A stretch of 33,351 nucleotides of DNA from an uncultured Gammaproteobacteria bacterium. GTDB lineage: Bacteria; Pseudomonadota; Gammaproteobacteria; CAMYKB01. Shown here piece after piece: positions 4,283-29,647 of the stretch. Numbering within the stretch: position 1 is the stretch's first letter; the number at the start of each line of letters is the position of its first letter. Both the position numbers and the translations under genes were made by a program. The notes below the pieces were generated by a model that was not told where the DNA came from, searched no databases, and was given only the letters and a program-made list of their open reading frames with translations. The stretch is taken from positions 1 through 33,351 of the forward strand of contig CAMYKB010000027.1 in NCBI GenBank assembly GCA_947258875.1. Reading direction: 5' to 3'.

Positions 4283-4286
4283 ATAA

Positions 4287-7338: not shown

Positions 7339-7418
7339 CAACAAGTTTAACAAGAATTTATATTTCATCGACCAAAAAACGGTCGATGAAATATAAGCCG
7401 GTTAAATAAGCGTTACGC
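7333..7418 (+). repeat. attC site 9
   Basis: GCCTAAC (7333-7339) contains the methyltransferase stop codon, and GTTACGC (7412-7418) is the right box with one mismatch. A perfect 16-bp stem pairs 7358-7373 with 7381-7396 around a 7-nt A-rich loop. Confidence 0.82.
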
Positions 7419-7427
7419 GTAAAAAAT

Positions 7428-7598: not shown

Positions 7599-7683
7599 TT
7601 ATTTGTGGTAGTTTAGATTTGATCTGGTACTGTTTGTACGGTCAGGTCCTGGCTATTACGCTGAATCAGAGGTTCCCCAGCCG

Positions 7684-11440: not shown

Positions 11441-11446
11441 TACATC

Positions 11447-11992: not shown

Positions 11993-12010
11993 GATTCGTT
12001 TCCTCTCACA

Positions 12011-12565: not shown

Positions 12566-14292
12566 TAGAATGTCACTCCGCATTGCGCGCCGACAGCCTG
12601 TAGCCGCACGATCTCCGTCTTACGGGTGTCAACCATATGCACGGCGCAAGCCAGGCAGGGGTCGAAGGAGTGTATGGTGCGTAATACTTCGAGCGGCTTT
12701 TCAGGATCAGCGATCGGGTTATCGAGCAGCGAGGCTTCGTAGGGTCCGGGTTTGTCGAGCTCGTCACGCGGCCCGGCATTCCAGGTGCTGGGTACGACCG
12801 CCTGGTAATTGGCGATCTTGCCATCGCGTGCCACGATCCAGTGCGATAAGACGCCGCGCGGGGCTTCGTGATAGCCAAAACCACGAATTTCCTCCTTGGG
12901 AAATACGGGCTGGTTGAAGGTACTGTAATCACCTTTACCAATATTCTCCATCAGTAGCTGCCACTGCTTGGTAAGTGATTCATGCAATACCGCGGTACGC
13001 ACGGCGCGTGCGGCATGGCGGCCGATGGTGGAATGCAATGCTTCCACCGGGATGGTTGTACCGGCGACACTGCCAACCATATCCAGCAGGGTTTTTAAAT
13101 GACGCGTTGTCGGTTCATGTCCAGCAGCAACCATTGTCAATACATTGGCCAACGGGCCCACCTGGGCGCGTTCATCATAGAAGGTCGGCGCCTTGACCCA
13201 GGAATACTTGTCGTCATCCTGAAAGTCGGTGTACTCGGGAATGGTCTCTCCGTCGTAGGGATGCAGTGCGCCCTTGCCGCCCTGATACCAGGCGTGCTTG
13301 ACACTTTCTTTCACGCCGCCTTCAAAGAAGGCATCCTGATAACTGGTTATCGGTTTGAATGTCGACAGATCGGCGTTCTTGATATAACCACCCGGCAGGT
13401 CGAATTTGGTGCCTTTGGTGTCCAACGGTAAATCCGGAACCGCGAGATAATGGGTGACACCGGCACCATAAGCCGTCCAGTCGGCATACAGAGCGCCGAT
13501 GGCGGCCACGTCAACCATGTAGACCTTGTTCACGAAGTCACCCAGTTCATCGATGATGCTCTTGATGTAATACAGGCGCTCAAGCGTCAGGGTCGACTGG
13601 CTGTCCATGTTGATGGCATTGGTAACACCACCGACGGCCAGGTTCTGAATATGCGGTGTCTTGGAACCGAGTATGGAAACGATCTTGTTGGCGGTACGCT
13701 GATAATCCAGTGCCTGGAAATAATGTGCCGCTGCAATCAGGTTGATCTCCGGCGGCAACTTCATGGAGGGATGTCCCCAGTAGCCGCTGGCAAATACACC
13801 CAGTTGACCGGATTCAATAAAGCTTTTCAGTTTGTCCTGAATCTGCTTGAAATGCTGTGCGCTGTTCAGCGGCCAGTCCGACAGGCTTTGTGCAATCTGC
13901 GAAGCCTTGTTCGGATCGGCATCAAGTGCCGACACGATATCCACCCAGTCCAGTGCAGACAGGTGATAGAAATGCACGATGTGGTCGTGGATGCCGTGTG
14001 CCGTAATCAACATGTTGCGTATGTACTGCGCATTGAGCGGTACTTCCAGGTTTAGCGCATTTTCGACTGCGCGCACCGAGGCGATGGCGTGTACCGTGGT
14101 GCACACACCGCAGATACGTTGCGTAAAGATCCATGCGTCGCGCGGGTCACGTCCCTGCAGTATGAGTTCGATACCTCGCCACATCTGGCCGGATGACCAT
14201 GCCTTGGTAACCTTGCCATCGTCGACTTCGCAATCGACACGCAGGTGGCCTTCGATTCGGGTCATCGGATCTACGATGATTCGTTCACTCAT
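12565..14292 (-). CDS. hybC: [NiFe] hydrogenase large subunit
   Basis: The 575-residue catalytic subunit carries the two paired cysteine motifs that bind the Ni-Fe(CN)2CO site: RICGVC with Cys61 and Cys64, and DPCLACAVH with Cys546 and Cys549. Processing is expected after His552, removing 23 residues, longer than the tail of many homologues. The N-terminus (DPMTRIEGHL) is canonical. With the small subunit, HybA- and HybB-like partners, this is a membrane-bound group 1 uptake hydrogenase, closest in gene content to the Hyd-2 (group 1c) type. It starts 39 nt after hybB. Confidence 0.95.
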   Translation of the reverse strand: MSERIIVDPMTRIEGHLRVDCEVDDGKVTKAWSSGQMWRGIELILQGRDPRDAWIFTQRICGVCTTVHAIASVRAVENALNLEVPLNAQYIRNMLITAHGIHDHIVHFYHLSALDWVDIVSALDADPNKASQIAQSLSDWPLNSAQHFKQIQDKLKSFIESGQLGVFASGYWGHPSMKLPPEINLIAAAHYFQALDYQRTANKIVSILGSKTPHIQNLAVGGVTNAINMDSQSTLTLERLYYIKSIIDELGDFVNKVYMVDVAAIGALYADWTAYGAGVTHYLAVPDLPLDTKGTKFDLPGGYIKNADLSTFKPITSYQDAFFEGGVKESVKHAWYQGGKGALHPYDGETIPEYTDFQDDDKYSWVKAPTFYDERAQVGPLANVLTMVAAGHEPTTRHLKTLLDMVGSVAGTTIPVEALHSTIGRHAARAVRTAVLHESLTKQWQLLMENIGKGDYSTFNQPVFPKEEIRGFGYHEAPRGVLSHWIVARDGKIANYQAVVPSTWNAGPRDELDKPGPYEASLLDNPIADPEKPLEVLRTIHSFDPCLACAVHMVDTRKTEIVRLQAVGAQCGVTF

Positions 14293-14331
14293 GTTGTGCT
14301 CCTTCCTATTAAGTCCAGGGGCTATCAGCAG

Positions 14332-15465
14332 TTACGCACGGTGTAAAACGGGTAAGGTCTTGACGAAGATCAGATACAGAATCACTTCGAAAGAGAAAAT
14401 ACCCACCGTCAGCATGATCTCGGCGACCGACGGAAAATAATGCCAGGTGCCGCCCGCAGCCGGGTGGTACCCGATAATGTAGGTGTTGATCCGGTATATC
14501 GATCCAGCCAGCAACAGGCTGACTGCTGAAATGAAAATCAACGCTGGATTGGTGCGCGAGCTGCGTTGTGCAAGCAGTACCACCGGAACGATAAACAGCA
14601 GGTTTTCCACCCAGAACATCAGTGCATCCAGATTGCTTTCAAAGGCAAAACCCAGTGCGCCGCGCCACAGCAGATCTGCGAAACGCAACACCAGGTAGAA
14701 AATAGTCACTGCCAGGGCTACCCCGGAAATTTTTGCAAGCAGGCTGGTTTCCATCGGCTGGCGCAAACCCATGGAAGCAAGGATGGCCTCGAAGGGAACG
14801 AGGGCGTAGCCCATCAGCAATGCACTGATGAGGAACAAGGGTGGCAGTAACTGTGTCTGCCACAGCGGTGAAATTTGATGTCCTGCAACCACGGCCATGG
14901 TGCCCAGTGATGACTGGTGCATAGTGGGCAACAGGATGCCCAGGGCAATAATGATGAACAGCACTTTGGAGAGTTTCTGGCGCAGGTTTTTCAGTCCAAA
15001 ACGCTCCAGGAACGTAGGTAAAAATTCGATCCACAGCACTACGATGTAAGCCATCACACACCAGGCCACTTCCAGCATCACCGAGTTGTACTGTACGTAG
15101 CCGGGCATCATCAGCGTGTAGAATTGCCAGTAGCGGCCAAGATCAAACATGACCGCCATGCCGGCAAGTGTGTAACCAAACATGCCTGCCATTAACGCCG
15201 AACGCACCAGCGGGTGGTATTCGCCACGGTTGAACAAATACACCAGCAGCGCCACGGCATAACCGGCACAACCGAAGGCGGTGCCGATCATGACATCAAT
15301 AACGATCCAGATACCCCAGGGATAACCGTCGTTAAGGTTGGTAACTGATCCCAGTCCGAAAATAAAACGCGTAGCCAAGATCGCCAGGGCGATCATGAAC
15401 AGTAACAGGAAAAAATAGAACGGGCGGGTGAAAAGCTTTCCACCAATGGGTGCATGTGTACTCAT
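14332..15465 (-). CDS. hybB: HybB-type membrane subunit (NrfD/PsrC family)
   Basis: The 377-residue integral membrane protein has about ten hydrophobic helices and begins with a short cytosolic segment before the first helix. NDGYPWGIWI near residue 40 is typical of HybB/NrfD-like proteins. It has no haem or cluster of its own; in the family it connects the periplasmic iron-sulfur subunit with the quinone pool. Its ATG overlaps the stop of the HybA-type gene as ATGA, indicating translational coupling. Confidence 0.93.
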   Translation of the reverse strand: MSTHAPIGGKLFTRPFYFFLLLFMIALAILATRFIFGLGSVTNLNDGYPWGIWIVIDVMIGTAFGCAGYAVALLVYLFNRGEYHPLVRSALMAGMFGYTLAGMAVMFDLGRYWQFYTLMMPGYVQYNSVMLEVAWCVMAYIVVLWIEFLPTFLERFGLKNLRQKLSKVLFIIIALGILLPTMHQSSLGTMAVVAGHQISPLWQTQLLPPLFLISALLMGYALVPFEAILASMGLRQPMETSLLAKISGVALAVTIFYLVLRFADLLWRGALGFAFESNLDALMFWVENLLFIVPVVLLAQRSSRTNPALIFISAVSLLLAGSIYRINTYIIGYHPAAGGTWHYFPSVAEIMLTVGIFSFEVILYLIFVKTLPVLHRA

Positions 15466-16475
15466 GACGTCCCCTTGTCAGAAGAAGTTTCTGAATCGCT
15501 GTGGTCATCATCGTGGTGATTGCGGGTATTGCGGTGCACTACATAGACCAGTCCGGAAAGCAGCACGGCAGGGCCGAGCATCCACTTGTAAAGCGTGTGC
15601 TGAATGCCTTCCGAAATCGTGGGGTAGCCAAAATCCGGTACATTGGTTGGCAGTCCCAGTTTGTCGAAGGACACGGCGGACATATACATCACCTGGGTGC
15701 CGCCCAGTTCCTTCTCACCATAGACATGCTTGAGGTAGCGTGACGCTTTCGCGATATGGCCGGGCCGTCCGCCACCCAGTTTACCGCGCGGGAATTCGTA
15801 TTCCTGATCGGTTTGCATCTGCAAGCGCCGTTGTGATTCCTGTTTCAGGTCCTCGACGGTGCCAAACAACGATGCACCGGTCGGGCACACGTCACAACAC
15901 GCGGGGATCACACCTTTGGCCTGCAGGTGTGCACAGAACTGACACTTCTGGATCTGGCCAAAGGCGTCCTCGTATTCGTATTTGGGTATACCAAAAGGAC
16001 AGCTATAGACACAGTAACGGCAGCCGATACAGCGATCGGCGTGATGTTCGACGATGCCGGTCATTGGGTCTTTGGTCATAGCTGATACCGGGCATACCGA
16101 CACGCAGGAGGGGTCAACGCAATGCAGACAATGGCGTTTCATAAACGCGTAGCCATCGACTTCCTGGTCCTTGTGTTCAGCGCTACCGTTCTGGTAGAGC
16201 TTGATGACGTTGAGGGTACGCCCGGAGGTTTCCGGCGGTGTATCCCACAGGGGTGTGGGTTGACCGGGGGTTTCCGGCGGCATGTTATTGGCATCCTTGC
16301 AGGCCGACATGCAGGCCTTGCAACCGATACACAACGACGAGTCGTACAGCATGCCCACTGCATCGGGCGGCAGCTGTTTGGTTTCGCGCTGCGCTGCATT
16401 CGCAGCATCTGCGCACAATGCGCCACCCACACCCGCGGCCGACAACTTGAGAAAATCTCTACGATTTAACGGCAT
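15462..16475 (-). CDS. hybA: HybA-type 4Fe-4S ferredoxin subunit with Tat signal
   Basis: The 337-residue protein starts with a twin-arginine signal (NRRDFLK, residues 4-10). It has four cysteine clusters: CIGCKACMSAC (Cys49, 52, 55, 59), CLHC...CVSVCP, CIGCRYCVYSCP and CQFC...CCDVCP, giving up to four [4Fe-4S] centres. A hydrophobic helix near the C-terminus (WMLGPAVLLSGLVYVV) is followed by a His/Asp-rich tail and would anchor it. It passes electrons from the small subunit to HybB. It starts 3 nt after the small-subunit gene. Confidence 0.94.
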   Translation of the reverse strand: MPLNRRDFLKLSAAGVGGALCADAANAAQRETKQLPPDAVGMLYDSSLCIGCKACMSACKDANNMPPETPGQPTPLWDTPPETSGRTLNVIKLYQNGSAEHKDQEVDGYAFMKRHCLHCVDPSCVSVCPVSAMTKDPMTGIVEHHADRCIGCRYCVYSCPFGIPKYEYEDAFGQIQKCQFCAHLQAKGVIPACCDVCPTGASLFGTVEDLKQESQRRLQMQTDQEYEFPRGKLGGGRPGHIAKASRYLKHVYGEKELGGTQVMYMSAVSFDKLGLPTNVPDFGYPTISEGIQHTLYKWMLGPAVLLSGLVYVVHRNTRNHHDDDHSDSETSSDKGTS

Positions 16476-16478
16476 CGT

Positions 16479-17642
16479 CTAGCCCTCCCGGTCGTGCGGC
16501 TCTAGGTCGTTATCTGTTTCGTTACCGTTGTTTTGCATGAGACGATTAACAACGACGCCACCTGCACCTGCAGCTGCACCGGCAACGGCCAGCGCCGTGG
16601 CGGCAGCGGCGGGAGTGACGCCTACCCCGATGTCCTCGGCAATGTCGACATGTGTGGCGGAAGGCTTGATCGTTTCAAGTTCGGCCAGCTGGTGCACGCC
16701 TTTGGTAAAGCCGACGCCTTGTTCAGAACAGCCGAAGCAGGGATGCCCCGTACCCACCGGCCACGCACCCGGGCCCACGTCGCCGAACAGTATTGCGGGA
16801 CAGTTGGCGTAGGTCTCCGGACCCTTGCAGCCCAGTTTGTACAGGCACCAGCCCTTGCGATGACCTTCATCGCCAAAGGTGATGGCGAAGCGTCCGGCAT
16901 CAAAGTGCGGACGGCGTTCGCAGTTCTCGTGAATCAAACGGTTATAGGCAAACTTCGGGCGGCCCTTGGCGTCCAGTTCCGGTAATCGATTAAAGGCGAG
17001 GAAGTGCAATACTGTAGTCAGGAAGTTATATGGATTCGGCGGACAGCCGGGGATATTGACGATTGTCTTATCCTTCAGTATTTCCGCGACACCTGTGGCG
17101 CCTGTTGGATTAGGGCCGCTGGACGGTATGCCGCCCCAGGATGCGCAGGAACCGATGGCGATAATGGCGGCTGCGCCCTCAGCGGCCTCAAGCAGGTGAT
17201 CAAGAATCGGTCTATCGGCTACCTTGCAATAAATGCCGCCATCCTTGACTGGAATGGAGCCATCAACGACCAGTACATACTTACCCTTGTTCTGCTGCAT
17301 CGATTGTTGTTTATGGGCCTCGGCCTGATGCCCCGCGCCTGCCGACAGGGTTTCATGGTAGTCGAGCGAAATAGCATCGAGGATGAGTTGTTCAAGGGTC
17401 GGGTGTGTGGAGCGTAATAACGATTCGGTACAGCCGGTACATTCCTGTGCCGACAGCCAGATCACCGGTGGGCGTTGCGGGTTGCTTGCGGCCGCTGCGA
17501 TCTGCCAACTCATCCCGGCCGGTAAACCAATAGTGGCTGCAACCCCGGTGCAAAACTTCATAAACTCGCGCCGGCTAACGCCTCCCAACGTGCCTACGAA
17601 ACCATCCAGATGAGTGTCCGACTCTTTGATGCTGATCGCCAT
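16479..17642 (-). CDS. hybO: [NiFe] hydrogenase small subunit with Tat signal
   Basis: The 387-residue subunit has the twin-arginine signal SRREFMKF (Arg24, Arg25), which exports the folded dimer. Mature sequence starts with WLSAQECTGCTE (Cys68 and Cys71), part of the proximal cluster, and later GSCASWGG, NIPGCPPNP, KGWCLYKLGCKGP and HPCFGCSE supply the other cluster ligands. A glycine/alanine-rich helix near residues 345-368 should anchor it in the membrane. It is the first gene of the operon and therefore follows the promoter region directly. Confidence 0.95.
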   Translation of the reverse strand: MAISIKESDTHLDGFVGTLGGVSRREFMKFCTGVAATIGLPAGMSWQIAAAASNPQRPPVIWLSAQECTGCTESLLRSTHPTLEQLILDAISLDYHETLSAGAGHQAEAHKQQSMQQNKGKYVLVVDGSIPVKDGGIYCKVADRPILDHLLEAAEGAAAIIAIGSCASWGGIPSSGPNPTGATGVAEILKDKTIVNIPGCPPNPYNFLTTVLHFLAFNRLPELDAKGRPKFAYNRLIHENCERRPHFDAGRFAITFGDEGHRKGWCLYKLGCKGPETYANCPAILFGDVGPGAWPVGTGHPCFGCSEQGVGFTKGVHQLAELETIKPSATHVDIAEDIGVGVTPAAAATALAVAGAAAGAGGVVVNRLMQNNGNETDNDLEPHDREG

Positions 17643-17823
17643 GACTGCTATATCTCCAGTTAAAGAACAGGGGATGTACTGCAGCTAGCGCTATCTCGCG
17701 ATGCCAGGCTTATTCACCTGGTATGGTTGGGCTCAGAAATACGGTGTGTACTTCCGTGAGACCAGTCTACGTCGTTGAAATGGGGGGCTGGCTGAGCACA
17801 TAAACTGTGTTTCAACATTACCG

Positions 17824-17872
17824 AGAGCAGGTAATACATTATTTATCGGCTCTCGAGATTGACATGAGTCAA
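17824..17872 (-). promoter_or_regulatory. predicted class II FNR/ANR-dependent promoter of the hydrogenase operon
   Basis: The perfect palindrome TTGACATGAGTCAA at 17859-17872 is a variant of TTGAT-N4-ATCAA. If its centre is placed at -41.5, the hexamer at -12 to -7 on the - strand is TATTAC (17831-17836), a 4/6 match to TATAAT, and the start falls near 17824. This geometry is that of class II FNR activation. It fits oxygen-limited expression of an uptake hydrogenase. The site was found by eye. Confidence 0.5.
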
Positions 17873-17917
17873 CAATGAAACCGCGATTTTGGATAAGTAC
17901 GGTAATGTTCAAATTAA

Positions 17918-17931
17918 CTGACCAGGATCAA
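17918..17931 (-). promoter_or_regulatory. second FNR/ANR-like box
   Basis: On the - strand it reads TTGAT-CCTG-GTCAG, with one exact FNR half-site and one near match. It is 59 bp upstream of the first box, centre to centre, and could add activation or repression. Confidence 0.4.
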
Positions 17932-18055
17932 TTAATTCCGGCTTTGAAAATGGCAGGGCGAGGAACAAGACCCCTTCTCCCAAGATTGGAAGGCGGCTGC
18001 AAGGCAGTCAAAGGGCATGAATGGGAATGAGCTTTGTAAGACAGTACTGACTCAA

Positions 18056-18073
18056 GGCTCATTCGGATGAGCC
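18056..18073 (-). terminator. hairpin after the 233-residue gene
   Basis: GGCTCAT-TCGG-ATGAGCC is a perfect 7-bp stem with a 4-nt loop, 27 nt beyond the stop codon of the - strand gene at 18100. There is no clear T tract, so termination is uncertain. Confidence 0.35.
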
Positions 18074-18099
18074 CGAAGAATGGTTTGTGTGAGGCGCCC

Positions 18100-18801
18100 T
18101 TACTCTTTCAGTTTGATGACTAGTTGCCCTTCCTCGATGTGGATGTTTTCCACGCCGTCGGCGAATGACTTCCAGAAACCTTGTTCACCGCCGAATTCGC
18201 GCACCAGGTCGATATTCTTTAAACCCCCGATCCAGGCGTTGGGTAGCGGTACACCCATGACACTAATACCCTTCAGTACAACCACGGGCCGGCTGTCGCG
18301 GTATGCCAGCTCAACACCGGCACGCACCTTGAGGGTTTTGCCACCCAGCAGCGGGAAATCCTCATCCATGGGCACCAATAGTTTGGCGCTAACCAGGTCG
18401 CCCGATAAATCCAGCGCAAGCCTGCTGGCGATATCCGTATTCTTCGCCACCAGCGCATTGAGTTCCCTTTCGCTGAGGGAGATTTCGCGCTTGGCACCTT
18501 CTTCGCTGTAGGCTTCCGGTTCGAGTGCCTTGCCGGGTTTGACCGATTCATCGCCTCCGCGATGAGCGCGAGCGGGGGTCTGGAATGTGTCGAGGCGCTG
18601 TAGCTTGGTCGTCAGAACCTGCTCTTCCTTTGCATTGAGTGTGACCGGCTTGAATTCCGTACGAAACACCGTGAGCTTAAGGACAAAGAAGGTGACAACT
18701 GCCGTCAGCAGAATTGCAACCAGTACAAACAGAGTAATGTGCAGAGCGTCGAAGCGGCGTTTGCGAGCCGGGTCTGCAGTTTGATCGATATCAGTATCCA
18801 T
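18100..18801 (-). CDS. single-pass membrane protein of unknown function
   Basis: The 233-residue protein has a basic cytosolic start (ARKRRF), one transmembrane helix (about 21-43) and a large presumably periplasmic part. That part contains ISLSERELNALVAKN, LLVPMDEDFPLLGGKTL and GISVMGVPLPNAWIGGL, which look like a conserved family found in gammaproteobacteria; I cannot attach a function. No catalytic motif is seen. It is separated from the PAP2 gene upstream by 80 nt and may share its transcript. Confidence 0.7.
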   Translation of the reverse strand: MDTDIDQTADPARKRRFDALHITLFVLVAILLTAVVTFFVLKLTVFRTEFKPVTLNAKEEQVLTTKLQRLDTFQTPARAHRGGDESVKPGKALEPEAYSEEGAKREISLSERELNALVAKNTDIASRLALDLSGDLVSAKLLVPMDEDFPLLGGKTLKVRAGVELAYRDSRPVVVLKGISVMGVPLPNAWIGGLKNIDLVREFGGEQGFWKSFADGVENIHIEEGQLVIKLKE

Positions 18802-18881
18802 AAGTGGAATACTGACGCAGGCGGGCAGGCGAGTAAAGCCTGTTGTGCGCCGCAGGCGGCATAAACCGGTTCCGGTTGATG

Positions 18882-19601
18882 TTAACTATTAGCTGGGTCG
18901 GATGCGTCTTCCAGGCGCCCACGCTCCTGCAGCCAGCGGGCGACCAACCAGCAGGCCGCAGCCCAGGCCGACCCCGCAGCCCAGCCCGCTAGAACATCGG
19001 TGGGCCAATGAACCCCAAGATAAATACGGCTCATGCCGACAAGAAACGTGAGTAACACCGCACAGAGAATGAGATAGGCCCTGACACGACGGCGCTTGTG
19101 CACGGCCGCCAGCAAGGGCCCGCAGGTGAGATACACAACCGCGGACAGCATGGAGTGGCCACTGGGAAAACTGGCTGATGACACTGCCGTACCGTGCGCC
19201 ACCAGATCCGGACGTGTGCGGTCAAAACCGGATTTCAGTGCCGTCGATAATAGTAGTCCACCACTGACCGCTAGAATAATAAACAGGGCAGCGTGTTTTT
19301 TACCGCGTAACAGCAAGTAGCCCATTGTGCCGAAGGTAATGAGAATCAACACGCCCACACCACCGAGTGCGGTAAAGTCACGAAACATGACTTCCAGCCA
19401 GGAAGGCCCAATTGGGTCGGCGAGATCTCCCGGTACGCGCATCGACATCAACATCCCTTCATCAAAGGCGTGCATGCCGCCCGCCATGACGGTATTCGCA
19501 ATTACAATAAAGGTTGATAATCCCACGCCGATGATCAACAGGCTGATTGCAGTAATGTGGTCAAGTACAAAGTCATGGCCGGCTGATTTTTGTTGGTTCA
19601 T
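18882..19601 (-). CDS. PAP2-family membrane phosphatase
   Basis: The 239-residue protein carries the three PAP2 signature motifs: KSGFDRTRP (Lys123, Arg130), PSGH (146-149) and SRIYLGVHWPTD (Arg192, His198, Asp202). His149 and His198 are the expected acid and nucleophile. About six transmembrane helices surround them. Likely substrates are lipid phosphates such as undecaprenyl diphosphate or phosphatidic acid/PGP; the sequence does not decide between them. The insert between helices 1 and 2 (FDEGMLMSMR) is typical of bacterial members. Confidence 0.9.
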   Translation of the reverse strand: MNQQKSAGHDFVLDHITAISLLIIGVGLSTFIVIANTVMAGGMHAFDEGMLMSMRVPGDLADPIGPSWLEVMFRDFTALGGVGVLILITFGTMGYLLLRGKKHAALFIILAVSGGLLLSTALKSGFDRTRPDLVAHGTAVSSASFPSGHSMLSAVVYLTCGPLLAAVHKRRRVRAYLILCAVLLTFLVGMSRIYLGVHWPTDVLAGWAAGSAWAAACWLVARWLQERGRLEDASDPANS

Positions 19602-19930: not shown

Positions 19931-20356
19931 TTAGGGACGCCAATACTTGTAACCTAGCATTTGAAGCCGTATTACTTCAGGCGCGCCCGCTGGAACAAAT
20001 TCGATTTCCAGTGGGAATTCATCTTCTTGTAAGTTCCACGCGCGCATACTGATGCGGCATGCCTTGAAGGTAACGCCTCGGTTAGCTAGCTTGGTTACAA
20101 GTTGTGATGTTTCCTTGTTATTCTCTAATAACGCTTGAATTCCATTCTCATATGCAACAACTTCTATTTTTAACTGTTTTTCGCCTAGATCATCTAGCAC
20201 TTTGTCAATTTGCAACAGTGCGCGTCGGTGACCATAGTTGTCGCCAGGGCGAGTTAGCTGCATAACAAATGGAACAATATCATCAGCAGCGATGACAGGA
20301 GAGGGTATGTCTAAAGCAAACAACAAACACAATATTGGGAAATAACTGAGTTTCAA
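19931..20356 (-). CDS. secreted DsrE-fold protein
   Basis: The 141-residue precursor has a signal peptide (1-23, cleavage after VIA) and a DsrE-like alpha/beta fold: a Q/D-rich strand-helix unit (HRRALLQIDKVLDDL), KIEVVAYENGIQALL, then RGVTFKACRISMRAW. Cys100, in the place of the conserved cysteine of many DsrE/DsrF-like proteins, is the only cysteine of the mature form. Cytoplasmic homologues move sulfur; a periplasmic one could bind persulfide or be structural. The start is TTG 20356 with GGAG 6 nt upstream. It stands alone. Confidence 0.75.
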   Translation of the reverse strand: MKLSYFPILCLLFALDIPSPVIAADDIVPFVMQLTRPGDNYGHRRALLQIDKVLDDLGEKQLKIEVVAYENGIQALLENNKETSQLVTKLANRGVTFKACRISMRAWNLQEDEFPLEIEFVPAGAPEVIRLQMLGYKYWRP

Positions 20357-20473: not shown

Positions 20474-20722
20474 ATGAGCGTGGCTCAGGGTCGATTGATA
20501 ACTTCGAACATACTATTTATCGGGGTAGATGTACATAAAGACAACGCCAGGAGCGACATGGTCGGCGGTGCTGCCATGTTGGTTTACGCGCCTGCCGCCC
20601 AGTTGTTCTTGCCGTTACCAATCCACCAGGTTTTCGCGAGGATAGTGGATGATGGTCACCGCGAACCTGAAGATATCAGCGATTTCGAGTTTGGCTACGT
20701 GAATGGTATGAGCGGATTGTGA
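20474..20722 (+). pseudogene. possible IS110-type transposase N-terminal scrap
   Basis: An 82-codon + strand frame contains ILFIGVDVHKDN (about 20507-20545), which resembles the first strand of the IS110-family DEDD transposase (IGxDVHKD). Nothing after it looks like that family, and the end of the frame overlaps the opposite gene. It may be a small relic or a coincidence. Confidence 0.25.
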
Positions 20723-21616
20723 GGAGTCATCGCTGACCTTGATTCCCATCTGGTTCAGGTGATAAGAATTGAGATTCATACATACAAAGTCTTCGGGATG
20801 ATTCAGGATGCCCTTGACCTCCTTCAGATAATATCGCGGTGAATCCAGGCTGGCGGGTATTTGTTTGAGTTTGTGTTCGGTTTCGGCTAGTTTCTCCTCG
20901 ATGTCGCCGTCTGGGGTTTGCTCAATAGTCGAGGTATTCAGCAGGACGCTCAAACCACCGCTCTGTGCCTGCCTTGCTCTCAGGCGCGTATGAAGAATAC
21001 GGCGTTGATCCTCCAGATTCCGCATCTGTGACTTAACTTCCACGATGTTCTGTAGTGCGCGAGTTATCAGGCCATCGAAAATACATTTTTTGATGCCCTC
21101 TCTGGCGTCTGCTTCGGTTGCCGCCGGTGACAGAATTTTATGATCAGAAAAATTAACGGCTGTCTGCATGACGTCATGACGCAGCATGTCGCCTTCCAGT
21201 TCGGTGCCTAATATGGTTTTTTCTTCCACTGTTGTACATAGCAATGCATAGGCTCCATCAATACCGACGCTTGAGATGTCTTTGAAAAACGCATTCGCTT
21301 CAGGGTTGCGATTGAAAAACAGATGCATTTCCCCAAGTGTGGCGAATAAGGCATGGACCTGCGGGTCTGAAATGAAGGTTTTATGATTGACCTCGAGAGG
21401 GCCAGGGATCTTGTCTACGAGTTCATCGATATATGCCAGCGAGGTGGCGACTGCATCCTGTAGTTTTTTTTTGTATCCCATGATGAGCCGCATATTCGGC
21501 TCGGTGCCTTCGACAACCGTCTCGATGGCTTCCAGCAAGGCAGTGTCTGGCTGCTGCGCTATGTGTCTTGCGATCATCCCGCCAGGGAAGCGCGGTAGTT
21601 TGAATGGTGGCTTCAT
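20615..21616 (-). CDS. conserved hypothetical protein, 333 residues
   Basis: No family is recognised. The protein is soluble and mostly helical by composition. A charged segment near 205-235 (VKSQMRNLEDQRRILHTRLR) and another near 250-275 (IEEKLAETEHKLKQ) could form coiled coils. The N-terminus is FPGGMIARHIAQQPDT; a GIDGAYALL segment lies in the middle. No signal peptide or transmembrane helix is seen. A TATAAT sequence at 21669-21674 (- strand) may be its -10. The end overlaps a doubtful + strand frame. It is full length with a normal codon pattern, so I consider it a real gene. Confidence 0.75.
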   Translation of the reverse strand: MKPPFKLPRFPGGMIARHIAQQPDTALLEAIETVVEGTEPNMRLIMGYKKKLQDAVATSLAYIDELVDKIPGPLEVNHKTFISDPQVHALFATLGEMHLFFNRNPEANAFFKDISSVGIDGAYALLCTTVEEKTILGTELEGDMLRHDVMQTAVNFSDHKILSPAATEADAREGIKKCIFDGLITRALQNIVEVKSQMRNLEDQRRILHTRLRARQAQSGGLSVLLNTSTIEQTPDGDIEEKLAETEHKLKQIPASLDSPRYYLKEVKGILNHPEDFVCMNLNSYHLNQMGIKVSDDSSQSAHTIHVAKLEIADIFRFAVTIIHYPRENLVDW

Positions 21617-21747: not shown

Positions 21748-22710
21748 TTAACAGGCGGGTGTTCGACTGCCCTTGCCAGAGGCCGTTGCTGCCGCAGCGC
21801 AATGGAATTCGGAGCGTGCAACGGCGTCCTCAAAGAAGGGTAGGTATTCAAGCCAGTTTTCGACCGGACCGTAGTGTGAGAACACTACGAGGCCATTTCT
21901 GTCCAAAACATAGCTGCTAGGGAACACACGGGCGATCTTGCGATCCTCGATCTGGTTGTCACTGGCCAGTGACAGGCTGGTGTGGTCACTGTCTGTGGCC
22001 AGTGAATCGTAAAGCGGCAGGTTGCCGAAGCCGTTTTGCTCGGCCCATTGGCGCGACTTGCTGTAGGGTTCGCGTACCTGAAGAAAAACCATGACAACAT
22101 CGGCAGAAAACTTTTCCTCAAGTCGTTGTTGCAAAATCTTCAGGGAAGGGAATTCCCGCATGCAAGGCGGACACCATGAGCCCCAGAAATGGACGAAGGT
22201 GATTTTCCCTCGTAAGCCAGACAGCGACAGAGATTTACCTGCGGCATCCTTGTAGGTCAGGTCGTAGAAGCGCTGACCGACTCCTGTGCCGGTTGCCGCA
22301 TCCAGTGTGTCCTGTTTGCCTGCATAGGGCCCCCACAGCGTCGGCCATGTGCTGTTATTAAAAACAACACGCTCATCCAGCGCGTACAGTACACACTTCT
22401 GCTGGGTGTTCGCCTGGCAGTTTTCGAGGGCCTGTTGTTTGGCGTCCTCCGGCGAGACGGCATCGGCTTGCCACGCCCAGGCGCCGCCAGGGGCAATCGC
22501 AAACGCCTTGTGCCCGTCGGCGTATTGGTATGCGCTGTAGTTTTGCTGTGCCCTTGCGTTGACGTGCGGTAGGTTGGCTGCAGCTGTTGGCGGTGATGCA
22601 ATGCCAGGCCCGGCGATCAGGTAATAAGTTGTTAACATAACCGCAACAACCCGTGCCAGGCCCGGCTTGCTTGTTCTGCTGTGAAATGAAGTTACCTTAA
22701 AAAGTCTCAT
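21748..22710 (-). CDS. TlpA-type thioredoxin with N-terminal DUF4189-like domain
   Basis: The 320-residue exported protein has an N-terminal hydrophobic signal (about 20-42). Residues 58-117 (GHKAFAIAPGGAWAW, AKQQALENCQ, KCVLYALDERVVF) resemble a DUF4189-like domain. From about 145 a TlpA/ResA thioredoxin fold follows with active site WCPPC (Cys180, Cys183). Such proteins reduce disulfides or apocytochrome haem-binding cysteines in the periplasm. Being 9 nt after the cytochrome b gene in an operon with an octaheme cytochrome, a cytochrome-maturation or thiol-transfer role is plausible. Confidence 0.85.
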   Translation of the reverse strand: MRLFKVTSFHSRTSKPGLARVVAVMLTTYYLIAGPGIASPPTAAANLPHVNARAQQNYSAYQYADGHKAFAIAPGGAWAWQADAVSPEDAKQQALENCQANTQQKCVLYALDERVVFNNSTWPTLWGPYAGKQDTLDAATGTGVGQRFYDLTYKDAAGKSLSLSGLRGKITFVHFWGSWCPPCMREFPSLKILQQRLEEKFSADVVMVFLQVREPYSKSRQWAEQNGFGNLPLYDSLATDSDHTSLSLASDNQIEDRKIARVFPSSYVLDRNGLVVFSHYGPVENWLEYLPFFEDAVARSEFHCAAAATASGKGSRTPAC

Positions 22711-22719
22711 TGGTCTCGC

Positions 22720-23313
22720 TTAGTCTGTTTCTTCCCAGCCAGTGATCATGGCCTTGATGTGAGCCGTCGGTGTATGTCCGGCGGTTGCCAGATACACGTG
22801 CGCGATAAAGAAGATCAACATCATGAATGCGGCGATCACGTGAAACAGGGCAACGTATTCAATGTTCAACCAGTCTACCCCCCAATCTTTCCAGGAGTTG
22901 TAAAACAGATAAAACCAGCCTGTTGTCCAGATGAGTGGGTTGATGACTAACAGTACAAACAAGTAGGCCAGACGTTGCAGGGGGTTGTGTTTTTTTAAGC
23001 GTGTCTGTTTGAATGGATGCGGTGCATTGGTGAAGATGCCAGTGAGATAGTAGCGGAACATCGCCACCACTTTATCCATGGTTGGAATGTACTGCTTCCA
23101 TTCGCCGGTAGTGAGGTGCCAGAAGACTGCGAACACCCACAAACCCACCAGCGTCCAGGCGGCGATGGTGTGGTAGGCCACAGCTTGCTGGAAACCAAAG
23201 AAGGTATACGAGCCATGCACCTCGAAGCCAGTGAGCATAAGGAACATGATCAGCGCCGCCTGCGACCAGTGCCAGAAGCGTTCAAAGCGTTTAAAGATAT
23301 ACATTCTTTCCAT
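22720..23313 (-). CDS. membrane cytochrome b (b561-like), quinol-side subunit
   Basis: The 197-residue protein has four hydrophobic helices with histidines placed for two b haems: candidates are His15, His48 and His66, plus FHVIAAF and IAHVYLATAGH in the last helices. This is the Ni-Fe-hydrogenase/FdnI/PhsC-type cytochrome b domain. It begins 4 nt after the octaheme cytochrome gene, so it is probably the membrane partner moving electrons from quinol to that cytochrome. It could in principle also serve the hydrogenase, but that operon has its own HybB. Confidence 0.88.
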   Translation of the reverse strand: MERMYIFKRFERFWHWSQAALIMFLMLTGFEVHGSYTFFGFQQAVAYHTIAAWTLVGLWVFAVFWHLTTGEWKQYIPTMDKVVAMFRYYLTGIFTNAPHPFKQTRLKKHNPLQRLAYLFVLLVINPLIWTTGWFYLFYNSWKDWGVDWLNIEYVALFHVIAAFMMLIFFIAHVYLATAGHTPTAHIKAMITGWEETD

Positions 23314-23317
23314 CGTT

Positions 23318-25051
23318 TTATCCTCTCTTACTCATCAGGTAGCGGATACCGCCGTGGATGAGGACGCCTAGCAAGGCAAGCAGTGCCAGGGTGAAACCGA
23401 TCTTGTCGACTAAGGGTGTGTTGTTGCGGCCCGGCATGTAGATGCCGTCGATCGCCTGCAGGCGGCCATTTTCCGTATGGCATTGTTCACAGCGCATGGC
23501 GTCTTCCTTGGGTGCGACCATATGGGTAATGGGCCAGCTCATCTCCGTTTCCACGAATTTCTTTTCGCCGCTGTACTTCATGCCGGCTTCGCGCATTCCC
23601 CATTCGAGCGCCTTGTCCCAGTCGTAGTTGCCCCAGAAAGCGGAATCGTCCTTGCCCGCCGTGTGAAACACGGCCAGTGTTTCGTTGCCGACGTCGTAGG
23701 GTTGTTTACCACGGAATACTTTCACCGGCCAGATGCGCGAGTCCGGGTCATCGGCGCTACCGAGGAAGGTGTTGATGTTTACCTTGTCGCCCTCGACTTT
23801 TTCACCGAACAAGGTGTACTTGACGTTGCCGTTGAACCATACGTATTCCGGTATTACATAACGGTCGTAAGTGAAGTGACCTTTCTTGCTGTCATAGCTG
23901 ACGCGGCCGTTACTGGCTTTCTCGATAATGCGTTGGCCTTTTTCATCAAGCTTGCCGGCGGTCGACCAGTCCCAGCTCATTTTGGTGGCGAGCGCGCCGC
24001 GCGCAAATTCCGGAATGTGACAGGTCTGGCAGGCCAATTTGTCGGTATGCGCGTTGAGCTTCGCAGTGATTGTGGTATTACCCGGATGAGGCGTATTACC
24101 GTGGCAGGCGACACAGGTGGTGGGGTTTCTGCCGTTACGCTTGCCGCGGATTAATGCGCCCTCGTCGTCTGTTGCGGTCGGCGCATAACGGCTGCCCGAC
24201 ACCTCATGTGAATCGCTGACATGGCAGTCGCCGCAGGTAAAGTTCAGGCCGTCGGATTCCATGTGGACATCCAGATAACGTTTTGGATTGGTCAGTGAGC
24301 TGTCCAGATCACCATGCTTGACTGCATTTCCACCGCCACCGTAGAAATGGCAGGCGCCACAGGTTTGCCGGCTGGTTTTACCAATGTTCTGGGCAATCTT
24401 TTTGAGATCGACGGCCTCACGGAATTTGCCGGAATGCGGTGGCCATTCCATTTTTTCGTAATTGGGATGTCCGGAGAGCCCCGGGATCTTCTTGTAGCTG
24501 CCGGTGGTGTCATGGCATGCGATACAGTCGACATTGGCTTCGGAAGTGAAATCGAAGGAATCGTCACTCCAGCCATAACCGACGTGACAGGCACTACAGA
24601 AGGTCTGGTTGGAAGTCACCGCGGTACAGAAGTTGTTGATTATGCTTTTCTTGCCGAGCTTTTGCTTGGTGACCGGATTGAGGTATTCCCAGGTCCAGTG
24701 CTTGGTGTTGTGAACCTGTTTGGCGGCCTCGGTATGACATTCCAAACATGCCTTGGTGACCTCGGGCCCGGTCTTGAAATCTTTGTCGAGTTCCGAAAAC
24801 TTGGAGTGATCGGCGGTGGAAGGCTTTTTTGCCTTGGGCTTGGTATATGCCTCGCTGCTTACAGCCACAGTGGTCTTTTCGTTCGCCAGGGTTACCACTG
24901 GTGTCGTGGTTGCGCTGCCTGGTTGTGCAGTGATAGCGGCGCCGTCCGCCTTTGGTTGGGCGTCCGCCACAATTGCGGATGCGCTGGTGGTGACCAGCAG
25001 GCAACCGATGAGAATAAGCGCGTGGCGTACTTTCATCCTTGGTGTATTCAT
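23318..25051 (-). CDS. octaheme c-type cytochrome, tetrathionate-reductase (OTR) family
   Basis: The 577-residue product carries eight CxxCH motifs, the first at residues 102-106 (CLECH), then CSACH, CIACH, CGACH, CGDCH, CVACH, CQTCH and CEQCH. Family members reduce tetrathionate, nitrite or hydroxylamine in vitro, and their natural substrate is unsettled. The N-terminus has a signal-type helix (ALILIGCLLV), followed by a low-complexity Ala/Thr/Lys linker to about residue 80. A C-terminal helix (IGFTLALLALLGVLIHGG) should anchor it. I choose ATG 25051, with GGAG 8 nt upstream; a farther in-frame ATG at 25117 lacks one. It follows the DUF302 gene by 59 nt. Confidence 0.92.
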   Translation of the reverse strand: MNTPRMKVRHALILIGCLLVTTSASAIVADAQPKADGAAITAQPGSATTTPVVTLANEKTTVAVSSEAYTKPKAKKPSTADHSKFSELDKDFKTGPEVTKACLECHTEAAKQVHNTKHWTWEYLNPVTKQKLGKKSIINNFCTAVTSNQTFCSACHVGYGWSDDSFDFTSEANVDCIACHDTTGSYKKIPGLSGHPNYEKMEWPPHSGKFREAVDLKKIAQNIGKTSRQTCGACHFYGGGGNAVKHGDLDSSLTNPKRYLDVHMESDGLNFTCGDCHVSDSHEVSGSRYAPTATDDEGALIRGKRNGRNPTTCVACHGNTPHPGNTTITAKLNAHTDKLACQTCHIPEFARGALATKMSWDWSTAGKLDEKGQRIIEKASNGRVSYDSKKGHFTYDRYVIPEYVWFNGNVKYTLFGEKVEGDKVNINTFLGSADDPDSRIWPVKVFRGKQPYDVGNETLAVFHTAGKDDSAFWGNYDWDKALEWGMREAGMKYSGEKKFVETEMSWPITHMVAPKEDAMRCEQCHTENGRLQAIDGIYMPGRNNTPLVDKIGFTLALLALLGVLIHGGIRYLMSKRG

Positions 25052-25110
25052 GATGTGTACTCCAGATGTATACGATGAGCTAATAGCTATATCGTGGTTC
25101 ATGTGATTGC

Positions 25111-25656
25111 TCAGCATCCACCGACATCCGTGCCGCCGGCACCGCCACCACCTGGGCGAATCTTAATTAGTGGGGGTGCAGGTTTGTCTGGATCAAATGT
25201 CAGGAAGGCCTCCTGGTCGGCCGCTACCTGGTCCATGATGTCTGAAATACCAAAGAGTTTGCCCATCAGGCCCGAATTCATGGTGCCGATGTAGGTTTTG
25301 CCATCGTCATTTTTGAATACAGTGATGGTGCAGGGCATCAGGATTGAAAATATGCGGTTGGCATTGGCCTTGAGTAACGGCCCGGAGTAATTGGTGCTAC
25401 ATGCCTCAACCAGCAATACCGGTAACACGTTACTTCCGGCAGATGCCACGGCCCTTGACGGATCCCTGAGGCCAGACAACTTCCAGCCATGCGCGGCCAT
25501 CTCCGGACTTTGAATATTCGCCTGGATGCGTGCCGCCGTTTCCTCTACGCCATAGGGGCTGGGGGTAATATTGAACATCAGGCTTTGTGCTGATGTCACC
25601 GCGATGACTGCGACCAGAGCAATGCCTGCAATGAAACCTACGATTGTCTTAATCAT
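25111..25656 (-). CDS. DUF302-domain membrane-anchored protein
   Basis: The 181-residue protein has an N-terminal helix (1-24) and a DUF302 domain, recognised by VEETAARIQANI, the central VLPVLLVEACSTNYSG, MPCTITVFKNDDGKTYIGTMN and a C-terminal segment. DUF302 is a small alpha/beta domain of unknown role. It ends in a flexible tail, GGGGAGGTDVGGC, with Cys as last residue. Being first in the operon ahead of the octaheme cytochrome, it may be an accessory or sensor protein of that system. Confidence 0.83.
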   Translation of the reverse strand: MIKTIVGFIAGIALVAVIAVTSAQSLMFNITPSPYGVEETAARIQANIQSPEMAAHGWKLSGLRDPSRAVASAGSNVLPVLLVEACSTNYSGPLLKANANRIFSILMPCTITVFKNDDGKTYIGTMNSGLMGKLFGISDIMDQVAADQEAFLTFDPDKPAPPLIKIRPGGGGAGGTDVGGC

Positions 25657-26234: not shown

Positions 26235-27212
26235 ATGAGATATTCAGTAGCAATCAGATATCTGCTCATCTTTTGCGTGTTTGCGGGCATTGCATTGGGC
26301 TTATTAGGTTGTGGACTGGGGGAAAGCAGCGAAAAACTGGATTTAACTAAACGTGTCAGTGATAAAACCGCCAGCGTTGCACTTACTAATGATGGTGCTG
26401 ATGATCCAGAAGTATTCAACTTTGGATTTGACCTCCGCGGTAGCCCACACGAGGACGCTCGCCAATACCTTCCTTTCCTGGATTATTTAGAACAAGCGAC
26501 ATCTTATCGATTCAGGTTGCGCTTCACTCCAAACGACGGGGAAATAATCGACGACCTGGGCAGCAATGTCGTTCAGTTCGCAGCGATAGGCGCAGAGTCC
26601 TATATACGCGCACGGCATCAATATCATGTAATCCCTCTGGTACGGGGCCTGAACCAATACAACAAGGCCGAATATCAGTCTGTGATTGTTGTTGCGCCCG
26701 GCAGCCCGGTGGAACAGTTGCAGGATCTGGTCGGCAAGCGCTTCGCCTTTGGCAGCCTCTCCTCTACACGGGGCCATTTGATCCCGCGCATCGTGCTGCA
26801 GGAGCACGGCATTTCATTGCAGGACTTCAAGCTATATGACCACACAGGTTCACACACTAATTGTGCCAAGGCTGTTATTTCTGGTGAATTCGATGCCTGT
26901 GGTATGCAGGACATCATGGGCAGACAATTGGCAGCTGAGGGATTACTGCGCATTGTTCACGAATCTAACTACTTTCCGTCGAGTGGTATTGTTACCAACA
27001 GCAAAGTTCCAGAGGAAGTGCGAGACAGGGTGAAGCAGGCGTTGCTCGATTTCAAGCCCCTGAGTATTCATGCCAAAAGGCTTTACAGATGGCAGTTGAC
27101 TGAAATGTCCAACGGCTTTGTCGAGGCGGATGACGAGGACTATCACGCCTTACATGAATGGAACCACAAATTCGGCTTGATTCGTCATGCGGAGGCGAGT
27201 GCCGAACAATGA
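26235..27212 (+). CDS. PhnD-type substrate-binding lipoprotein
   Basis: The 325-residue protein has a lipoprotein signal ending LLGC (Cys26). The mature part is a periplasmic binding protein of the phosphate/phosphonate (PhnD) class: FGFDLRGSPHEDARQYLPFLDYLE, VQFAAIGAESYIRA, VVAPGSPVEQLQDLVGKRFAFGSLSSTRGHLIPR and a FDACGMQDIMGRQ segment. No ABC permease or ATPase follows. Instead the stop codon overlaps the ATG of a GGDEF-EAL protein, so it probably presents a ligand to that sensor rather than to a transporter. The ligand is unknown. Confidence 0.85.
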   Translation: MRYSVAIRYLLIFCVFAGIALGLLGCGLGESSEKLDLTKRVSDKTASVALTNDGADDPEVFNFGFDLRGSPHEDARQYLPFLDYLEQATSYRFRLRFTPNDGEIIDDLGSNVVQFAAIGAESYIRARHQYHVIPLVRGLNQYNKAEYQSVIVVAPGSPVEQLQDLVGKRFAFGSLSSTRGHLIPRIVLQEHGISLQDFKLYDHTGSHTNCAKAVISGEFDACGMQDIMGRQLAAEGLLRIVHESNYFPSSGIVTNSKVPEEVRDRVKQALLDFKPLSIHAKRLYRWQLTEMSNGFVEADDEDYHALHEWNHKFGLIRHAEASAEQ

Positions 27213-29647
27213 AACTGTCAACCAGGATACTGCTCTTGATTGCCGGTGTGGCCTTGTTTCAGGGGGTTGTCATTGTTCTGTGGGGAGGCTCCCTTATGCA
27301 TAAAAGTCTGCATGATGAACTGAGCGAAAGGGTGTCTGTAATAGGTAAGTCAGCCGGCGAAGCTGTTGTTGATCGTGTGATAGATGGTGATGCGCTATCT
27401 GTCAATGAGATTCTCCGCGAACTCAAGACAGCGAATGAGAATATCGAATATGTCTATATTACCGATTTTGATGGCAATATGTTTGCGCATAGCTTTAAAA
27501 ATGGTTTTCCTCGTGACCTGATCGCCTTAACGCAGAAGGCGTCAGCCTCTGAAGGTGAAATGCTTGATAGATATGCGGTAGCGGCATCCGAGATCATTCA
27601 CGCCAGCCACCCGTTGATTGAGGGTATGGATGCTCGCATACATGTCGGAATAAACAATCAGGATGCAATAAAACAGCTGTCCTCTATCCGCTACCAAATG
27701 GCAGGTGTCGCGATTCTGGCGGTGGTGATGAGTTTCTTTGCAGGTATCTATCTCAGCAGGCGTGTAACGCGACCGTTGAGCAGGCTGGTCGCGTTACTCA
27801 GATACTATGGCCGCGGTGTGGCGGTTGCGCCGTTTCTTGTGGATGTCAAATCCGGTGGCCAGGAGGTTGTTGAGCTTAATGTCGCTTTTAAAGAAATGTT
27901 GAGCGAACGTTTGCGCTCAGAAGCCAGTATGCAAAGGCTTTCGATGGCGCTGGAACAAAGCGGCGATGCGGTCACTATTACAGACCGTGATGGCATCATC
28001 GAGTATGTCAATCCGGCTTTTGAGAAGATTACGGGTTATAGCAAAAGAGAAGCTGTAGGCAAGAGCCACCAAATTGTGAACTCAGGTCAGCACGAGCCTG
28101 AATTTTTTGCACGCCTGTGGCAAACGATATTATCCGGTGAAGTATTCAGCGAGGTGTTTATTAATCGCAGAAAAGACGGCAGCCATTACTACGAAGAAAA
28201 GACCATTACGCCTATAAAAGATGCGACTGGCGGTATCAGGGATATTGTATCTTCCGGGAGGGATGTAACTGAACGTCTCGAGGATCAAGAGCATTTGCAG
28301 TACCTTGCTCATCATGATGCGTTGACAGCGCTGCCAAACCGCGCCTTGTTTTCGGATCGGCTGAACCACGCGTTGGCACAAATGCGCGAAGTCGATGATA
28401 ACCTGGCCGTGTTGTTCCTTGATCTTGATCGATTTAAGATTATTAACGATACATTGGGTCATGGTATTGGTGATGAAGTACTACGGGTGCTGGCTGAAAG
28501 GTTAAAAGATTGTGTGCGTGAAGGTGATACAATTGCTAGATTGGGCGGCGACGAATTTGCAATCCTGATCCAAGGTATCAAGACCGCCAATCATGCGGCA
28601 CCCATCGCACAGAAAATCCTGGATTCGCTGGTGCAGCCTTTCGAACTTGACGATCGCGAACTCTATATAACAACCAGTATCGGTATCAGTCTTGCGCCTA
28701 TGGATGGCGATGATGCGCAGAGCTTGCTAAAACATGCCGACATTGCCATGTATCGTGCCAAGGATCTTGGACGTAACACTTACCAGTTCTATTCGCAAAG
28801 TATGAGCGATGCCGCGCTGGAGCGTCTGACACTGGAAACTGACCTGCGGCATGCCCTGGAGCGTGAGGAATTCCGGCTCTACTACCAGCCACAAGTAAAT
28901 CTCAATAGTGGTGAGATAACGGGTATCGAGGCGTTGTTGCGTTGGCAGCATCCAGAACTTGGCCTGGTTGAGCCTGTCGAGTTTATCCCCATACTTGAAG
29001 AAACAGGGCTGATCGTACAGGTCGGTGAATGGGTATTACGTTCCGCCTGCATACAAGCAAAGCGTTGGCAGAAATTGTACGAATCCCCGTTACGCGTCGC
29101 AGTTAATCTCTCAGGGCGTCAGTTCAGCGGACATGAACTGTCGGCAACGCTACGCAATATACTCCATGAAGCACAGCTGGATCCGCATCTGCTTGAGGTA
29201 GAGATTACGGAAAGTACGGTGATGCGGGATGACCGTAGAACAATGGAAGTATTTAATACCCTCAGTGAGTTGGGTGTAGGGATTGCCATTGACGATTTTG
29301 GTACCGGGTATTCGTCGCTTGGTTATCTCAAACGTTTCCCTATTGATACACTCAAGATTGATCGCAGTTTCATACGTGATATATCAACCGATCCGGATGA
29401 TGCCGCGATCGTCAGTGCGATCATTGCACTTGCAGATAGCTTGAATCTCCGTGTTATCGCTGAAGGCGTTGAAACAGAGGCACAGAATGCATTCCTGTGC
29501 GATCAAGGTTGCCAGACCATCCAGGGCTACTTGTTCAGTCGACCCATGCCTGCTGATCAACTGGAACAATTGCTGGTTACACCGCCTGGTAGCGTTTCAG
29601 ATGCAAACCGAGTGGGCCGTAAAACAGATAACGCCCGTATTCATTGA
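27209..29647 (+). CDS. membrane PAS-GGDEF-EAL cyclic-di-GMP enzyme
   Basis: The start used is ATG 27209, overlapping the upstream TGA (ATGA), giving 812 residues; a farther in-frame ATG at 27158 lies inside the preceding gene. Order: helix (8-27), periplasmic sensor (28-160), helix (163-182), HAMP-like segment, PAS domain (about 245-360, TITDRDGIIEYVNPAF), GGDEF at 446-450 with I-site RxxD (437-440), and EAL at 574-576 with DDFGTGYSSL and LKIDRSFI. Both catalytic signatures look intact, so it may make and degrade cyclic-di-GMP. Coupling with the binding lipoprotein suggests ligand control from the periplasm. Confidence 0.92.
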   Translation: MKLSTRILLLIAGVALFQGVVIVLWGGSLMHKSLHDELSERVSVIGKSAGEAVVDRVIDGDALSVNEILRELKTANENIEYVYITDFDGNMFAHSFKNGFPRDLIALTQKASASEGEMLDRYAVAASEIIHASHPLIEGMDARIHVGINNQDAIKQLSSIRYQMAGVAILAVVMSFFAGIYLSRRVTRPLSRLVALLRYYGRGVAVAPFLVDVKSGGQEVVELNVAFKEMLSERLRSEASMQRLSMALEQSGDAVTITDRDGIIEYVNPAFEKITGYSKREAVGKSHQIVNSGQHEPEFFARLWQTILSGEVFSEVFINRRKDGSHYYEEKTITPIKDATGGIRDIVSSGRDVTERLEDQEHLQYLAHHDALTALPNRALFSDRLNHALAQMREVDDNLAVLFLDLDRFKIINDTLGHGIGDEVLRVLAERLKDCVREGDTIARLGGDEFAILIQGIKTANHAAPIAQKILDSLVQPFELDDRELYITTSIGISLAPMDGDDAQSLLKHADIAMYRAKDLGRNTYQFYSQSMSDAALERLTLETDLRHALEREEFRLYYQPQVNLNSGEITGIEALLRWQHPELGLVEPVEFIPILEETGLIVQVGEWVLRSACIQAKRWQKLYESPLRVAVNLSGRQFSGHELSATLRNILHEAQLDPHLLEVEITESTVMRDDRRTMEVFNTLSELGVGIAIDDFGTGYSSLGYLKRFPIDTLKIDRSFIRDISTDPDDAAIVSAIIALADSLNLRVIAEGVETEAQNAFLCDQGCQTIQGYLFSRPMPADQLEQLLVTPPGSVSDANRVGRKTDNARIH

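Follow-up and report, generated by a model that had tools for sequence, protein, structure and literature searches.

The structure of an octaheme cytochrome of the OTR family was reportedly published in 2004. The Shewanella enzyme reduces tetrathionate and, in vitro, nitrite and hydroxylamine, and has the electron carrier STC as an interaction partner (PMC4484225). Heme 2 is the catalytic heme of OTR, the heme potentials of the soluble homologue are reported to be similar to those of MmcA (about -100 to -450 mV), and the physiological role of the enzyme has been termed cryptic (PMC11024163). In lucinid symbionts soxY-S3 and soxZ adjoin otr (PMC11237559), and in chemolithotrophs with the tetrathionate pathway a DUF302 gene lies between soxA and soxB (PMC5037610), an arrangement for which trithionate oxidation has been guessed (PMC5037610, PMC5248467). 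The OTR family itself and its SoxY neighbourhood, noted once before, are already known. In the literature searched we found neither DUF302 together with an octaheme cytochrome nor a carrier of the DUF302-tail type with a TlpA partner, and a wider search returned no description of the four-gene unit presented here.

The unit lies in a 33,351-nt stretch of DNA, the whole of which we refer to as the window, and consists of four minus-strand genes which encode, 5' to 3', a DUF302 protein, an octaheme cytochrome, a cytochrome b and a TlpA-like protein (Table 1). The coordinates and the tight spacing given in the initial annotation were reproduced, with gaps of 59, 4 and 9 nt in the same order; a longer open reading frame for the cytochrome, starting at 25117, exists, and the start at 25051 fits the 59-nt gap. 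Promoter-like or terminator-like sites at the unit were not clearly above shuffled sequence.

Table 1. Features of the four-gene unit, in positions of the window.
Feature	Position	Strand	Remarks
DUF302 protein	25111..25656	-	181 aa; PF03625; membrane helix at the N-terminus, then the DUF302 fold and a Gly-rich tail with Cys as the last residue; proposed sulfur carrier, membrane-anchored
DUF302 C-terminal tail GGGGAGGTDVGGC with terminal Cys	25114..25152	-	predicted disordered
Octaheme c-type cytochrome, OTR family	23318..25051	-	577 aa; exported, C-terminally anchored; TIGR04315
Cys142 codon of OTR	24626..24628	-	aligns with Cys64 of 1SP3
Heme-2 motif CSACH (second CxxCH) of OTR	24584..24598	-	catalytic heme in OTR (PMC11024163)
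Lys245 codon of OTR	24317..24319	-	aligns with Lys153 of 1SP3, heme 2 ligand in OTR
Asn242 codon of OTR	24326..24328	-	1SP3 has Asp150 there
OTR C-terminal membrane anchor	23321..23407	-	hydropathy 2.18 (Kyte-Doolittle, best 19-residue window)
b561-type cytochrome b	22720..23313	-	197 aa; PF01292; proposed quinone-reactive subunit
TlpA-like thioredoxin, N-terminal DUF4189-like domain	21748..22710	-	320 aa; PF08534; proposed thiol partner of DUF302

The unit was compared with 81 OTR loci, comprising 80 from named genome records plus L007, with the window and one further locus (G270) counted apart. Most of these loci come from metagenome bins, some of them doubtfully named, and the many antisense or shifted-frame clusters produced by clustering of all open reading frames were disregarded. 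Two of the bins (L065, L078) are titled Bordetella parapertussis, and their OTRs group with those of other betaproteobacterial bins, so that the species name is probably wrong. The initial annotation had proposed a co-occurrence survey, and all four genes were indeed found together, rather than only apart, in relatives: identical order and strand recur in three loci (L048, L049, L050), which argues for a unit beyond chance. Carriers of the unit appear, from their loci, to include relatives of Thiobacillus and of the Gallionellaceae. Three neighbouring genes were considered as further members and rejected, as relatives do not keep them near OTR: a DsrE-like gene (19931-20356), a gene at 20615-21616 and a PhnD-like gene (26235). 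The first encodes an exported protein and lies close to the unit, likewise on the minus strand, and other DsrE-like genes occur near OTR in four loci; the last encodes a periplasmic binding protein and overlaps a gene for a PAS-GGDEF-EAL protein, the two (together 26235-29647, +) being divergent from the operon and likely forming a sensor/c-di-GMP pair.

The window cytochrome clearly belongs to the known OTR family, as it scores 618.3 bits against TIGR04315 (cut-off 375) over model positions 1-440 of 440 and matches both Pfam Cytochrome_cB (5.3e-68) and the Shewanella OTR structure 1SP3 (6.5e-110), while the NrfH model reaches 25.6 bits on it, below a cut-off of 134. Consequently, the initial annotation of the locus as a candidate for an undescribed system does not apply to the enzyme. 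Its eight CxxCH motifs (shuffled mean 0.02, maximum 2 in 20,000 shuffles) and its C-terminal hydrophobic anchor, on the other hand, had been described correctly. An anchor of this kind is present in most OTR members and absent from the four soluble Shewanella-type ones. Across 85 members, Cys is found at the position of Cys142 in 84 and Lys at that of Lys245 in all, the latter a presumed heme 2 ligand from alignment with 1SP3, and the position of Asp150 (1SP3) is occupied by Asn in the window protein as well as 14 others. The source genome has one full-length OTR; among 398 genomes sampled from the phylum, 45 carry one above cut-off. A 2026 review lists a selenoprotein in TIGR04315 without giving the position of its selenocysteine (PMC13188914), which would be telling if it stood in place of the active-site Cys.

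Of the 74 loci that have 600 nt or more of downstream flank, 73 encode a homologue of the window cytochrome b directly after OTR, L127 being the exception. OTR and cytochrome b form a single open reading frame (27-2423) in the metagenome bin L115, with soxY and soxZ behind it; subject to assembly error, this fusion supports a physical complex of OTR with cytochrome b. The window cytochrome b matches PF01292 (Ni_hydr_CYTB) with 83.6 bits (cut-off 30.1; 1.9e-23), and its His15, His48, His158 and His172 are invariant among 57 full sequences, which fits a protein with two b hemes; its nearest curated family is PhsC (NF011582), at 113.4 bits, under the cut-off of 204. From the electron flow proposed at the outset, that is quinol to cytochrome b to octaheme cytochrome, the membrane redox pair can be retained on the strength of neighbourhood and fusion, but electrons may run the opposite way. 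A further type of OTR cluster is seen in five loci (L088, L101, L102, L107, L112), where a multiheme cytochrome of about 430-460 aa is encoded directly upstream of OTR and a NapC-like gene is nearby. In five others (L073, L081, L090, L093, L097) OTR and cytochrome b are followed by genes for DUF3373 porin-like, small conserved exported and rhodanese-domain proteins, and the recurrence of the three makes an outer-membrane link possible.

Around the OTR-cytochrome b pair, SoxY and SoxZ are encoded together in L083, L100, L115 and L117, coming after the pair in the last three, and SoxZ also in L088. Rhodanese-domain proteins occur near OTR in 19 loci and YeeE-type sulfur transporters in 11, and in G415 the genes run YeeE, OTR, cytochrome b, a SulP-like gene, SoxY, SoxZ. 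At OTR loci the C-terminus of SoxY reads GAGGCG or AGGC (AGGC in G415). Matches to sulfur genes lay within 5 kb of OTR in 17 of 18 cases (33 loci with full flanks), and no sulfur gene was seen within reach in 35 of the 62 loci without DUF302, some of which are cut by contig ends. The recurrent neighbours identified are sulfur genes, nitrogen genes not having been surveyed alike. Tetrathionate, nitrite, hydroxylamine or another compound had been listed as possible substrates, and the neighbouring genes narrow this choice to sulfur.

We know of no function for DUF302, and its role had been left unassigned in the initial annotation, which overlooked the terminal-Cys tail. The window protein matches PF03625 with 36 bits (cut-off 23; 6.3e-9), and its AlphaFold model (pLDDT 84) comprises a membrane helix, a DUF302 fold similar to 1Q9U (Foldseek 7.5e-8) and 7TJ1, and a disordered tail. 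In 21 loci (19 of the 81 database loci, the window and G270), from records labelled alpha-, beta- and gammaproteobacterial, a DUF302 gene immediately precedes OTR. All 21 OTR-linked proteins end in a Gly-rich stretch with terminal Gly-Cys, compared with none of 11 other DUF302 matches in the phylum sample, two of which are close homologues (about 1e-52) from genomes with OTR elsewhere; internal Cys 85 and Cys 108 (alignment numbering) are common to DUF302 generally. On the OTR tree the DUF302 trait needs two changes, and a single origin is also possible. Since DUF302-linked OTRs thus trace back to one lineage or two, the association tests carry the effect of common descent, and for this reason Fisher tests on the loci are descriptive only. 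SoxYZ, rhodanese, YeeE or DsrE genes were found within 7 kb in none of the 19 loci with DUF302 vs. 27 of the 62 without, and DUF302 and SoxYZ share no locus. The absence of those sulfur genes from DUF302 loci makes DUF302 look like a local replacement of a SoxYZ-type carrier. By Pfam, the SoxY domain (PF13501) was not found in the window DUF302 protein, DUF302 being the sole match, and the likeness to the SoxY arm is best described as a functional analogy, not family membership. Alternatively, metal binding or disulfide formation could be the function of the terminal Cys.

The window TlpA-like protein matches PF08534 (Redoxin; 1.2e-13) and carries a CPPC motif. Its DUF4189 label (PF13827) is weak, as the match of 22.3 bits is below the Pfam cut-off of 25. 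The TlpA, DsbE and ResA equivalogs (NF047696, TIGR00385, NF002854) gave 56, 30.7 and 45.7 bits on it, none reaching its cut-off (230, 123 and 170). Cys98, Cys106, Cys180 and Cys183 are invariant in 12 homologues, and the model (pLDDT 84) is confident over residues 50-300. The gene is found within 7 kb of OTR in 12 of 19 loci with DUF302 vs. none of 62 without, and 5 of the 7 DUF302 loci lacking it end early downstream. It is downstream and co-directional in the window, L048, L049 and L050, downstream on the opposite strand in L053, L055, L057, L060, L067, L076 and G270, and upstream on the opposite strand in L056, L066 and L086, and this company with DUF302 in shifting positions suggests a functional tie. 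One counterexample is G415, in which a full-length TlpA-DUF4189 homologue lies far from OTR and no DUF302 match was found. Proteins of the TlpA/ResA/CcmG type generally serve cytochrome c maturation, and the initial annotation had suggested that the thioredoxin matures the octaheme cytochrome; since the gene tracks DUF302, not OTR, we abandoned heme maturation as the leading idea. SoxW probably reduces or resets the carrier cysteines of SoxY.

The host draft genome (3.0 Mb, 67 contigs) contains SoxB twice, SoxA and the 3' end of SoxZ beside one SoxB, and DsrA. In this draft no match to SoxC and no NrfA above cut-off were found. SoxY was not found in it by Pfam, but the SoxZ end lies at the edge of a contig, directly ahead of SoxA and SoxB, so that the missing SoxY may be an assembly gap and was not used as evidence. 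Within the limits of a draft genome, the gene set is that of a sulfur oxidizer without SoxCD. The window also carries, at 11447-17642 (-), a Hyb-type uptake [NiFe] hydrogenase cluster (small, ferredoxin-like, NrfD-type membrane and large subunits, protease, HupE-like) which, together with Sox and Dsr, suggests hydrogen and sulfur lithotrophy. Near position 7500 the G+C content steps from about 0.40-0.46 (1-7500) to about 0.53-0.56 (7500-19500), and hence the left part of the window may have been recently acquired; at 2675-4228 (+) it encodes a protein which, read by eye, has an N-terminus like CDGSH iron-sulfur repeats and a glutamate-synthase-like domain.

Beside the gene order, families, conserved residues, co-occurrence and tail described above, we infer a carrier role for DUF302, a thiol partnership for the TlpA-like protein and a sulfur substrate. 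Judged from sequence, there is an even chance that the unit encodes a sulfur oxidoreductase that is bound to the membrane and linked to quinone, in which DUF302 carries the sulfur and the TlpA-like protein serves as the thiol partner of DUF302. The Asn at the position of Asp150 of 1SP3, the loci with no sulfur gene in reach, the TlpA homologue of G415, and nitrite and hydroxylamine reduction by Shewanella OTR weigh against it. Under such a mechanism OTR would face the periplasm and carry out sulfur redox chemistry at the Lys-ligated heme 2 beside the conserved Cys142, with electrons exchanged with the quinone pool through the OTR heme chain, the anchor and cytochrome b. The membrane-anchored DUF302 protein, occupying the place held by SoxYZ in other OTR operons, would present sulfur bound to the terminal Cys of its tail, as a thiosulfonate or persulfide, to heme 2 of OTR, and the TlpA-like protein would reduce or reset the carrier cysteines in a SoxW-like manner. 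Sulfur oxidation, with quinone as the electron acceptor, is slightly favoured over reduction, based on the sulfur-oxidizing host and the low heme potentials of Shewanella OTR, a soluble homologue. It is unlikely, though conceivable, that the OTR-cytochrome b pair is specifically a quinone-reducing sulfane dehydrogenase which replaces the missing SoxCD and acts on sulfur bound to the Cys of DUF302 (elsewhere of SoxY), making DUF302 a second, independently evolved periplasmic carrier.

Among the rival explanations, a quinol-driven tetrathionate or polythionate reductase, in which cytochrome b would oxidize quinol, OTR would convert free tetrathionate to thiosulfate, and DUF302 and TlpA would handle reactive sulfur by-products, is doubtful but survives best. 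It would agree with tetrathionate reduction by Shewanella OTR (PMC4484225) and with the resemblance of cytochrome b to PhsC of thiosulfate reductase, but the heme potentials (PMC11024163) are low for a ubiquinol-driven enzyme, though those of a soluble homologue, and the recurrence of SoxYZ or the DUF302 tail is unexpected if the substrate is free and requires no carrier. A nitrite or hydroxylamine reductase, either ammonifying or detoxifying, in which quinol electrons would reach OTR through cytochrome b and reduce nitrogen oxides, appears quite unlikely. Shewanella OTR does reduce both compounds in vitro and interacts with STC (PMC4484225); however, the identified neighbours, in a survey not extended alike to nitrogen genes, point to sulfur, and a carrier with a terminal Cys would be without obvious use. 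That OTR and cytochrome b are the functional pair, while the TlpA-like protein aids the maturation of cytochrome c and DUF302, retained through common ancestry, is a bystander or chaperone, is likewise quite improbable: the usual maturation role of such proteins (the CcmG-type DsbE and ResA models score below cut-off here) and the near-single lineage of DUF302-linked OTRs would fit it, but 62 loci have the same octaheme cytochrome without this TlpA nearby, TlpA accompanies DUF302 in three arrangements, and DUF302 keeps its terminal Cys without exception throughout three classes.

Taken together, the tail, the exchange of DUF302 and SoxYZ beside the same enzyme, and the TlpA tie offer one concrete and cheap hypothesis for OTR and DUF302 and make the roles of two orphan protein families testable. 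If the carrier-linked sulfur oxidoreductase is true, the nitrite/tetrathionate reductase annotations that such genes routinely receive in many sulfur and iron oxidizers would change.

With the OTR of Shewanella oneidensis (SO4144, PDB 1SP3) the window enzyme shares the family, the eight hemes and the aligned active-site Cys and Lys, but it is anchored, unlike the four soluble Shewanella-like members tested, has Asn in place of Asp150 of 1SP3, is paired with a cytochrome b and comes with DUF302 and TlpA. Of the curated families, PhsC, the cytochrome b subunit of thiosulfate reductase, is closest to the window cytochrome b, yet the latter falls below the curated cut-off, and while PhsC partners a molybdoenzyme, the window protein partners an octaheme cytochrome. 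In the Acidithiobacillia and others (PMC5037610), DUF302 is likewise found in a periplasmic sulfur-oxidation context and is of similar length (191 aa), but no OTR was reported at those loci, unlike in the window. The unit resembles SoxYZ, the Sox-pathway sulfur carrier served by the thioredoxin SoxW, in having a terminal Cys on a flexible Gly-rich arm and a thioredoxin-like partner, whereas DUF302 and SoxY are not homologous, and the DUF302 protein has a membrane helix of its own and lacks a SoxZ partner. Finally, the OTR/SoxY-S3/SoxZ loci of lucinid symbionts (PMC11237559) and those of L100, L115 and L117 share with the window an OTR core and, next to it, a small periplasmic protein whose C-terminal arm carries Gly-Cys; there, the putative carrier is SoxY (PF13501) with SoxZ, and in the window it would be the unrelated DUF302 protein with a TlpA-like partner.
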